NCBI RefSeq assembly: GCF_001426645.1 | Contig: NZ_LMEX01000004.1 | Location: 124,492 to 188,491, forward strand | Length of the DNA: 64,000 bases | DNA from: Rhodanobacter sp. Root480 | GTDB taxonomy: Bacteria; Pseudomonadota; Gammaproteobacteria; Xanthomonadales; Rhodanobacteraceae | Direction of reading: 5' to 3' | Part shown: positions 13,589-20,497 of the stretch, piece after piece | Layout: each line of letters opens with the position of its first letter | Position numbering within the stretch: position 1 is the first letter of the stretch | The notes under the pieces: generated by a model | Told to the model about the DNA's origin: nothing | The model's input: only the letters and a program-made list of their open reading frames with translations | Database searches by the model: none | Program-made: the position numbers and the translations under genes

Positions 13589-13980
13589 AGTCTCTCGCTG
13601 AGTGTCGATAGATACCCGCGCTTTTTTCCCCCTGTAGATCCAGGAGCGACCGGTCCCCTGACAGGCCGCAGCGCGGATGTGCGACAAGGTAACCCCAAAC
13701 GAAGTGGCACGGCAAATCAACGTTCAACGTATCGTTTGCGCGGGCGGCGGCAGGGCCGGCGTGGACGGCGACGTCCTGCGAACGAGCCGTGCGGCGAGGG
13801 CAATCCGGAGAAAACGGCGGTCCGGCAGTTTTGCGTCCCGCGCATAAAACCGGGAGCCCGGAAACGAAGCGTCCCGGCCAGGCCGGGACGAAGACTTTCG
13901 AAGTGCTCTCCCCGCGCTGGGCACCGCGGGGAGAGAAAACAACGATGAATGCGACAACGTACAGCGTGTTTCTTGGGTGC
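13589..13980. other. Intergenic region with two strong GC hairpins
   Basis: 392 nt without a convincing gene, between the start of the TonB-like gene and the stop of the metJ-like gene. It should hold the TonB-like promoter. Two near-perfect inverted repeats are present: CGTCCCGGCC (13870-13879) with GGCCGGGACG (13881-13890), and CTCTCCCCGCG (13906-13916) with CGCGGGGAGAG (13925-13935) around an 8-nt loop. Neither is followed by a T-run on the minus strand, so they are better read as 3'-end stabilisers or Rho-associated structures of the metJ-like mRNA than as classical terminators. Confidence 0.5.
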
Positions 13981-14562
13981 TTATTTCTTCGCTTTTGCCT
14001 TGGCGGTCTTGGTGGCCTTGACCACCCGAGCCGGTGCAGCTTTCTTGACGGCGGCTTTCTTCGGCGCCGCTTTCTTCGCGGCAACCTTCTTCACCGCAAC
14101 CTTCTTCACGGCGGCTTTCTTGGCGGCCGCCGGTTTCTTGGCGGCAGCTTTCTTCGGAGCCGCTTTCTTCGCGGCAACCTTCTTCACCGCAACCTTCTTG
14201 GCAGCGGCTTTCTTCGCGACCGGCTTCTTCGCTACCGGCTTCTTGGCAGCAACCTTCTTCGCGGTGGATTTCTTGGCGGCCTTCTTGGCGGCCGGTTTCT
14301 TTGCAGCAGGTTTTTTGGCAGTGGCCATGGTTCGTCTCAGCTCCTCATCAGTTGGCAGTGGTTGCCCAGTAAAAGCGTGAAGGAACGCTTCGACCAACAA
14401 GTCGCTGTTGGTAGCGTGCCGAAGATTGTTGACCTGGCGATACGTGCGCAGATCGGACAGCTTGTGCAGTACGTGAAGCGGAATCGAGACGGTGATCTTG
14501 CGTACGGCTGCCGCCTTCTCACCGTGCTCTACATAAGGCTTGATAAATTTTGATGTCGCCAT
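13981..14562 (-). CDS. MetJ-type ribbon-helix-helix repressor fused to histone-H1-like tail
   Basis: 193 residues. Residues 1-78 closely follow Escherichia coli MetJ, the SAM-responsive repressor of methionine genes. They include the DNA-contacting beta-strand RKITVSIP with K22 and T24, the [12 protein letters not shown] turn and [13 protein letters not shown], which lies in the SAM-binding part of MetJ. At residue 79 the protein changes abruptly to [11 protein letters not shown] and continues to the end as an AKK/AAPKK-rich tail (79-193) of the histone-H1/AlgP type. The last part of normal MetJ is replaced by this tail. Start supported by GGGGA 8 nt upstream of the ATG and by a TTGACA promoter. 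Met boxes lie upstream. I infer a SAM-dependent repressor with strong non-specific DNA affinity; an internal start at residue 79 could also release the tail alone. Confidence 0.9.
14066..14199 (-). repeat. In-frame direct duplication in the H1-like tail
   Basis: A 41-nt sequence occurs at 14066-14106 and again, identically, at 14159-14199. The offset is 93 nt, that is 31 codons, and the surrounding codons show the same period at protein level ([19 protein letters not shown] occurs twice). This indicates that the basic tail grew by in-frame tandem duplication and can vary in length. Confidence 0.8.
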
Positions 14563-14589
14563 GGCAACGTTCCCCGTTATCTGATGCGA

Positions 14590-14618
14590 AAGCTAGCCCC
14601 GAAGATTTCACCTGTCAA
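14590..14618 (-). promoter_or_regulatory. Probable sigma-70 promoter of the metJ-like gene
   Basis: Read on the minus strand: TTGACA (14618-14613), a 17-nt spacer, then TAGCTT (14595-14590). The -35 is a perfect consensus and the -10 is weak (3 of 6). The ATG is at 14562, so the leader would be about 20-25 nt. Confidence 0.6.
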
Positions 14619-14642
14619 TGGATTTTAGGCATGAAATCCATT
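14617..14642. promoter_or_regulatory. Palindromic operator candidate overlapping the metJ-like -35
   Basis: AATGGATTT (14617-14625) and AAATCCATT (14634-14642) form a perfect 9-bp inverted repeat with an 8-nt spacer. Its proximal edge overlaps the TTGACA element by two bases. It does not match the met box. A regulator bound here would probably act on the metJ-like gene. Confidence 0.45.
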
Positions 14643-14715
14643 CGGTTGAAAGGCACCTGGAAGGACTGAAAACCCGTTGTAGCCCGGGTCGCCCCGCCAA
14701 GTACCCTTGCATGTC

Positions 14716-14735
14716 ATGGACGTCTATACGTCCAT
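14716..14735. promoter_or_regulatory. Tandem met-box operator (MetJ site)
   Basis: ATGGACGT (14716-14723), CTAT, ACGTCCAT (14728-14735) is a perfect palindrome. It contains two adjacent 8-bp boxes, GGACGTCT (14718-14725) and ATACGTCC (14726-14733), against the MetJ consensus AGACGTCT. MetJ of E. coli binds at least two tandem boxes. The site is about 98 nt upstream of the TTGACA of the metJ-like gene, so it could mediate autoregulation at a distance or serve an unseen promoter. Confidence 0.65.
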
Positions 14736-15064
14736 TCCATATTTCACTGAAATTGCAAAAAAGCGCTGTATTGCGCTGGATACGCGCAATAAGGCGCAAT
14801 AAAAGAAATTCGACCGCCGTGCCTGCCGTTGTGACAAGCATGGCAGGCAACCGCTCTTTTTGGTGCTGCGCATATGAACAGAACGCCACTGAAAGTTCGT
14901 CGCGGCGTCGATCACAAGCTGAAAAATAATTCTGCCTGGTCGATCCTGGCGTGACGAAAACGCGACGAAGCGGGTTGTTCGGCACGCAGAAGGCGAAGCG
15001 CAACGCGTCCTCGTCGACCGCGTTTTCGCACACACCGATCGCCGATCTGCATCATCGACGAGTC

Positions 15065-15094
15065 AAAAAAACGACGGCCGCATAGGCGGCCGTC
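15065..15094 (-). terminator. Intrinsic terminator after gcvH
   Basis: GACGGCCGC (15073-15081), loop ATAG, GCGGCCGTC (15086-15094): a perfect 9-bp GC-rich stem. On the minus strand it is followed by G then TTTTTT-rich sequence (15071-15065). It lies 22 nt past the gcvH stop. Confidence 0.9.
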
Positions 15095-15116
15095 ATTCGT
15101 TCCGGACACGTCGCGC

Positions 15117-15512
15117 TCAATGATCTTCGTTTTCGATCAGGGCTTCGTAGTCGTGGGCGTCGAGCAGTTCGTCGAGTTCGGCGCGGTCGCTGGGACGCAC
15201 CAGGAACATCCATCCATCGCCGTAGGCGTCTTCGTTGATCGTCTCGGGCTTGTCGCCGAGCAGCTCATTGATCTCGACCACCTCGCCGGAGATCGGCGAA
15301 TAGATATCCGATGCGGCCTTCACCGATTCGACCACGGCCGTGCCGGCACCGGCCACGACGCTGGCGCCGACCTCCGGCAATTCCACATAGACCAGGTCGC
15401 CGAGCTGCTCCTGCGCGTGCTCGGAGATGCCCACGCGGACCAGGCCATCGTCTTCGGCGCGTGCCCATTCGTGGGACTTCAGGAACTTCAGATCACCGGG
15501 TATTTCGCTCAT
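15117..15512 (-). CDS. gcvH: Glycine cleavage system H protein
   Basis: 131 residues, the standard H-protein length. It carries the lipoyl arm that shuttles the aminomethyl group between the P, T and L proteins of the glycine cleavage complex. The lipoylated lysine is K65 in [13 protein letters not shown], and the [26 protein letters not shown] start is typical. It follows gcvT by 97 nt on the same strand and is closed by a strong terminator. No gcvP is in the window. Confidence 0.97.
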
Positions 15513-20459: not shown

Positions 20460-20497
20460 ATCTTAGGCCAATTTCATGAATAGACGTCCAGACGTCT
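20460..20497 (-). promoter_or_regulatory. cysD promoter with tandem met boxes
   Basis: Plus-strand AGACGTCC (20482-20489) and AGACGTCT (20490-20497) are two adjacent 8-bp boxes, one identical to the MetJ consensus and one with a single change. On the minus strand a TAAGAT -10 element is at 20465-20460, which puts the first box where the -35 should be; no TTGACA-like -35 is visible. A bound repressor would block RNA polymerase. The cysD ATG is 58 nt downstream. Confidence 0.75.

Follow-up and report, generated by a model that had tools for sequence, protein, structure and literature searches.

We examined a gene, metJ-H1, lying on the minus strand of the window (the whole 64,000-nucleotide stretch of DNA analysed here) downstream of gcvT and gcvH, which are on the same strand, with a gap of ~550 bp between gcvH and metJ (gene names by eye). 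Its product joins a methionine repressor domain to a long, repetitive tail resembling histone H1:

13981–14562, minus strand: metJ-H1 fusion gene, 193 amino acids plus stop (open reading frame call, profile matches and recurrence in the family)
14329–14562, minus strand: MetJ ribbon-helix-helix repressor domain, residues 1–78 (Pfam, NCBIfam and alignment with E. coli MetJ)
13984–14328, minus strand: H1-like AKK/AAPKK tail, residues 79–193 (composition; HC2 below its cut-off in hmmscan)

An initial annotation made from the sequence alone had read residues 1–78 as MetJ, and profile searches bear this out: the Pfam MetJ model matched residues 5–86 at 118.2 bits (1.6e-34; cut-off 25), the NCBIfam MetJ equivalog scored 122.7 bits (cut-off 110), and E. 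coli MetJ structures matched by sequence at 7.6e-30. The same annotation held that the DNA-contact residues are kept, and indeed K22 and T24, which we take to be the DNA-contacting lysine and threonine of the beta strand, align with K23 and T25 of E. coli and are both invariant across a 37-sequence alignment. For the tail, PF07382 (HC2) reached 31.3 bits by hmmscan (cut-off 40) and 44.7 bits in a genome search, the latter over a stretch containing one stop, and the NCBIfam H1-like model reached 40.2 bits (cut-off 80). Because the HC2 score lies under its cut-off or comes from a match across a stop, we use 'H1-like' in the sense of compositional likeness. The alignment with E. coli MetJ ends before the C-terminal helix C of that protein, and an AlphaFold model computed on 37 sequences had a mean pLDDT of 50.8, at which the SAM pocket is not readable.

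Retention of the fusion across the family

Our sample of the order comprised 398 genomes, 125 of them from the window's family (f1), and MetJ was present in 145, that is in 125 of 125 genomes of the window's family and in 20 from three sister families. The open frames of the window's family run to 137–399 amino acids, except in G380, where a contig boundary truncates the gene; in G390 (L084), one in-frame TGA falls within the MetJ part with the tail frame still open, reflecting either a draft error or a natural loss. The junction and at least 25 further residues were read in 90 genomes of the family and in Dyella choica. The fusion that had been proposed from a single gene is thus a family-wide feature with nearly all frames long, and since junction and tail recur across the family, we rule out sequencing error, frameshift and chance joining as its source.

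MetJ of the sister families f8, f9 and f12 is tailless, at 65–97 amino acids (one of 65, the others 79–97, with starts set by script; 19 of the 20 genomes were read), and ends near the point where the tail of the fusion begins, likewise without the E. coli C-terminal helix. Loss of that helix therefore probably predates the fusion, and the earlier statement that the tail replaces the normal C-terminus needs dividing: the E. coli C-terminus is gone, but its loss is not peculiar to the fusion. None of the 19 sister-family loci scanned has an H1-like gene beside the tailless metJ. A class-wide draw found MetJ in 5 of 369 genomes, two in the window's family and three outside, the latter all unfused with frames of 112–118 amino acids; with so few MetJ genomes, this survey says little about how rare the fusion is. 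As one part of the overall explanation that we judge to be probable, the H1-like tail would have been gained by MetJ in an ancestor of the window's family.

Synonymous constraint and a conserved ATG at the domain junction

The point where the two domains meet carries a signal at the nucleotide level, comprising three features:

14329–14376, minus strand: 48-nt coding stretch, residues 63–78, strongly constrained at synonymous sites and ending at the internal ATG (36-nt core, 14335–14370)
14341–14346, minus strand: SD-like GAGGAG, 12 nt before the internal ATG
14326–14328, minus strand: internal ATG (M79), a candidate second start codon, Met in 90 of 91 genomes

Across 70 family sequences, synonymous codons vary up to residue 62 and are then nearly frozen (GCT TTT ACT GGG CAA CCA CTG CCA ACT GAT GAG GAG CTG AGA CGA ACC, then ATG), with the codons of D72, L75, R77 and T78 varying more within the stretch. 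The ratio of observed to expected codon diversity was 0.23 over all 16 junction codons, compared to 0.77 over 61 upstream codons, and neither 100,000 random codon sets nor 46 contiguous windows taken upstream (lowest value 0.68) gave a ratio as low. A choice of 13 codons that left out three variable ones beside the ATG gave 0.14; we use the figure for all 16. Two cut or interrupted genes (L023 and L084) were excluded from the codon-diversity counts and from the folding counts below. Allowing up to three mismatches, the 36-nt junction pattern occurred in 124 of the 125 genomes of the window's family and in 0 of the 273 other genomes of the order, once per genome except in G380, which has two. 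Tailless relatives, compared by eye, are without the synonymous freeze at the same place. In the window, third-position GC drops from 0.68 to 0.38 within the stretch.

Of 91 genomes examined (90 of the 125 in the family, plus Dyella choica), 90 retain the internal Met, the next residue being Ala in 89 and Val in the other. GAGGAG precedes the ATG by 12 nt in 83 of the 91 and by 9 nt in 7; a spacing of 12 nt is longer than usual for an SD motif. In the folding test, which took in all 70 sequences, each of the 69 that have the internal ATG showed less mRNA structure around it than synonymously randomised versions; the median z was 2.10, with 39 sequences exceeding 2 and 68 exceeding 1 (a smaller picked set of 11 had given 8 of 10 above z 2). 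The low structure follows in part from the stretch being poor in GC. The exception, in one genus, is G238 (L073): GTC GTG stands in place of the internal ATG, the junction element is absent and the degree of folding exceeds that of the random versions (z about −2.5). The fusion is kept in G238, so it can persist without the junction element.

A conserved start codon, an SD-like motif, albeit at long spacing, and low structure all coincide at the junction, and translation of a tail-only H1-like protein probably begins there. Two observations speak against a start site: four codons near the ATG vary, and the constraint extends 48 nt upstream, beyond the need of a simple ribosome site. The constraint being tighter far from the ATG than close to it, like the long spacing in most genomes, would sit more easily with a different reading, in which the fusion protein is the only product, the frozen stretch acts as a different kind of signal, for example as an mRNA site bound by a small RNA or protein or as a site of pausing, and the Met is a relic start codon from an H1-like gene that once lay downstream of metJ. 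We consider this account somewhat unlikely, as it is at odds with the low structure found in every sequence that has the ATG, with the joint loss of element and ATG in G238, with the Ala or Val after the Met, which looks like a start site, and with the loci of tailless metJ scanned above, where no neighbouring H1-like gene was seen. Nor did Rfam return a known RNA family at the junction, its sole weak match (E 0.96) falling within the tail.

Three other candidates at the junction were rejected. A CUGAUGAG..CGAA string resembles a hammerhead ribozyme core, but the GAA is not kept (several sequences have CGC GAT) and no stem II was seen. An open antisense frame, read by eye as a possible overlapping peptide, shares its wobble positions with metJ and so cannot explain the constraint. 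Several single folds show a small GGCA/UGCC hairpin, but genera g6 and g14 have other bases there, and a conserved RNA hairpin was dismissed.

Met boxes and the region upstream of metJ

Four further features lie upstream of metJ-H1 and of cysD:

14718–14733, minus strand: tandem Met box GGACGTATAGACGTCC upstream of metJ-H1 (pattern match and family conservation)
20482–20497, minus strand: Met box AGACGTCTGGACGTCT upstream of cysD (no pattern mismatch; window genome only)
14590–14618, minus strand: promoter-like TTGACA-N17-TAGCTT, kept in the genus (read by eye)
14618–14641, minus strand: 24-bp palindrome at the metJ −35 edge, a possible operator of another regulator (by eye)

Genomes were scanned with a degenerate Met-box pattern, RGACGTMYRKACGTCY, derived from metJ upstream regions, at up to one mismatch and with the reversed pattern as control. 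The window genome gave 42 matches vs 2 for the control, 26 genomes of its genus gave 659 vs 51 (summed), and 22 other genomes of its family gave 307 vs 45, G012 and G110 lying lowest at 1 and 2. Across 20 genomes of a MetJ-less family there were 6 matches in all, with 35 for the control. Among genomes with tailless MetJ, four from f12 gave 34 matches vs 8, and eight from f9 gave 7 vs 12, no excess over the control.

Particular operators are conserved too. Part of the analysis used 30 entries hand-chosen to spread genera; the names metX, metE, cysB, cysG, cysD and those of other targets are our reading of the sequences by eye. At up to two mismatches, a metX operator was present in 23 of 25 genomes of the window's family and 0 of 5 from the MetJ-less family, the remaining two of the 25, the window genome among them, standing at three mismatches. 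By eye, the metX octamer array directly adjoins the −35 TTGAC in 25 of 25 genomes of the window's family, and in the MetJ-less family TTGACA at metX is preceded by different sequence in 5 of 5. With the same threshold, cysB had an operator in 17 of 20 genomes within the family and 0 of 5 outside (two mismatches in the window genome; 5 genomes whose best CysB match was another LysR protein were left out of the scan), and metE in 8 of 12 within and 0 of 3 outside. The reversed pattern did not reach two mismatches at any metX, cysB or metE region. At metJ itself, 63 of 71 family sequences match at least 11 of the 16 consensus bases at 150–200 nt before the gene, compared to 3 of 71 for the control.

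The initial annotation had taken Met boxes nearby as a sign that the MetJ half is active. The conserved boxes at metX, cysB, metE and metJ support an active MetJ half tied to a conserved Met-box regulon, as far as operator conservation can indicate, but the site at 20482 adds little: none of 21 cysD upstream regions in other genomes of the family has a box at up to two mismatches (weak or second CysD matches, L233–L235, were left out), and this lack of conservation makes the site weak evidence. Further Met boxes precede an aspartokinase-like gene in another genus, TonB receptors and leuA. In a co-culture proteome of Rhodanobacter thiooxydans, MetJ is reported to go up with nitrate and four methionine enzymes down (PMC12146267), and the portion of that paper available to us mentions no tail on MetJ. 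For the four Xanthomonadales that it covered, a 2014 regulon study names SamR but reports no MetJ, which fits a MetJ-less family without boxes at metX (PMC4239095).

Using crude gene calls, we placed 41 of the window genome's Met-box matches (L128, L167–L202), the 42nd being metJ's own box; 23 of the 41 lie inside predicted genes, for which a plain promoter-repressor model does not account, and 18 are intergenic. The intragenic boxes of the window genome could point to intragenic or nucleoid-type binding, and the MetJ-less family has its 6 matches spread over 20 genomes.

A Met box in the cysG/cysB divergent promoter was seen in three f9 loci with tailless MetJ (L279, L280, L282) and in one locus of the window's family with the tailed form (L275), which suggests that this box may be an old MetJ target, the loci having been picked for having a box. 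In G238 (L205), the metX and cysB boxes are weak, at 3 and 4 mismatches.

A scan for consensus sigma-70 promoters over 13700–15200 reported none, and the promoter-like sequence listed above was read by eye. The two arms of the adjoining 24-bp palindrome differ together in the window genome, and L049 departs from it. By eye, the arrangement of palindrome and TTGACA at metJ looks like what precedes metX in genomes of the MetJ-less family, and on account of this resemblance we propose that a SamR-like regulator may control metJ through the palindrome at 14618–14641. Farther upstream, at 14762–15098 on the minus strand in the gcvH–metJ gap, two terminator-like hairpins flank a conserved CCGTTCAT-type block, a region that perhaps encodes a small RNA or short transcript.

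Ligand sensing, tail function and related systems

The region implicated in SAM binding had been described as kept, which is true of helix B; where E. coli has Glu39 and Arg42, however, the window protein has L38 and Y41. We surveyed these positions in 92 sequences, of which 87 were matched (the window twice, as L001; L084, L086, L087, L088 and L090 were missed). Leu combined with His, Tyr or Glu occupies them in the window's genus and in four genera (g7, g10, g18 and g22), G238 has Glu and His, and all other matched sequences have Glu and Arg. Dyella choica (Rhodanobacteraceae), which has the fusion and the junction element, shows the same helix-A change and is closest to the loci of genus g7; its metJ locus has no good Met box, the best being at three mismatches. 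The partners of the Arg43–Glu59 salt bridge are invariant in the alignment. In a molecular dynamics simulation, the adenosyl group is reported to interact strongly with Glu39 and Arg42, and their mutation is predicted to lower SAM activity (PMC2775130). With two reported SAM contacts replaced in this clade, SAM sensing is not to be assumed, and what the replacement lowers is the earlier claim of a SAM-responsive repressor, not the homology to MetJ.

A SAM-I riboswitch was found in the metX leader in 6 of 6 cases scanned (L283, L286, L295, L303, L311 and L305), L305 belonging to the MetJ-less family and being without Met boxes, and the metE leader of the window genome has a cobalamin riboswitch (L236). 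Judged from these elements, metabolic control of the methionine genes is layered, with Met boxes and riboswitches together. It is conceivable, but in our estimate unlikely, that MetJ-H1 no longer responds to SAM in the manner of E. coli, being either constitutive with help from its tail or responsive to another ligand, and that the riboswitches handle SAM. The change in the window's genus and four genera at two residues named as strong adenosyl contacts would speak for such a shift, as would the SAM-I riboswitch also present at metX; the invariant salt-bridge partners speak against it, as do the numerous Met boxes in the window's genus and the occurrence of the metX riboswitch also in a MetJ-less-family genome and in genera that retain Glu and Arg.

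Overall, we consider it probable that MetJ-H1 is a Met-box repressor carrying a DNA-affine H1-like tail, with a probable tail-only product from the internal start. The MetJ dimer would recognise tandem Met boxes beside the promoters of metX, cysB, metE and metJ and block them. The Lys/Ala tail, probably disordered, would most likely add non-specific DNA affinity, keeping the repressor on the nucleoid and aiding weak sites, and GAGGAG-N12-ATG, within the frozen, unstructured stretch, would give rise to the tail-only H1-like protein alongside the fusion. Non-specific affinity is to be expected of the tail because of its likeness to the KPAA-type tails of AlgP and PhaF, which are said to bind DNA (PMC9239181), and to the lysine repeats of actinobacterial topoisomerase I, on which they confer processivity (PMC7398561).

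Counting against this model are the replacement of Glu39 and Arg42, the few Met boxes of G012 and G110, the lack of an excess in f9 and the wide variation in tail length, from 41 to 310 residues with a median of 100 over the 69 sequences measured. The variation in length would favour the view that the tail has no function and is a neutral leftover of read-through, which we regard as very improbable, given that K, A, R, P, V or T make up at least 88% of every one of the 69 tails and that the junction is under strong constraint. Somewhat less remote, yet still quite improbable, is a tail that binds polyphosphate, RNA or granules in place of chromosomal DNA and so governs where or when the repressor works. 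The KPAA domain of AlgP is indeed reported to be needed for even spacing of polyphosphate granules, but the same paper also describes DNA binding by KPAA peptides and by a fragment of the AlgP tail (PMC9239181), and the fusion partner here is a DNA-binding domain.

Returning to a DNA-affine tail, we tentatively suggest that one methionine-controlled gene could yield two chromatin-related products, a tailed Met-box repressor and a free H1-like tail from the internal start. If this held true, sulfur metabolism would be coupled to nucleoid state family-wide, with the intragenic Met boxes as nucleation points. The frozen junction predicts a hidden tail-only protein. An in-frame second product from an internal start has a precedent in gene products such as Cas11, where it is reported (PMC11899642), whereas here the tail-only product is inferred.

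In the textbook case, the MetJ repressor is a small, free-standing protein. The window protein shares with E. coli MetJ the ribbon-helix-helix family, the DNA-contact residues and tandem 8-bp Met boxes, and differs in having no C-terminal helix, a 115-amino-acid H1-like tail, L/Y at the Glu39/Arg42 positions, a conserved putative internal start signal and targets of its own (metX, cysB and metE). To our knowledge, the N-terminal domains of AlgP and PhaF are not sequence-specific repressors, unlike MetJ-H1; these Pseudomonas proteins otherwise share its layout, with a folded domain at the N-terminus and, after it, a long tail, which in them is of KPAA type (PMC9239181). Actinobacterial topoisomerase I likewise combines a DNA-acting domain with lysine repeats but is an enzyme (PMC7398561). 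SamR of the Xanthomonadaceae resembles MetJ in that it is reported to regulate methionine genes in bacteria lacking MetJ (PMC4239095), but it is SahR-like, has no relation to MetJ and uses a different operator. Our literature search found no paper joining MetJ with histone H1-like proteins and one that names MetJ together with Rhodanobacter, and the main text of a gammaproteobacterial MetJ regulon paper mentions no xanthomonad, Rhodanobacter, histone or tail (PMC3228920). A whole bacterial family appears to control methionine and sulfur genes with a MetJ tied to a histone-like tail, offering a natural test of the effect of a non-specific tail on a specific repressor.

As a separate observation, the DNA topoisomerase I of the window genome also has an AKK tail at its end, and a separate H1-like protein is also encoded in this genome (L204 and L203; names by eye).
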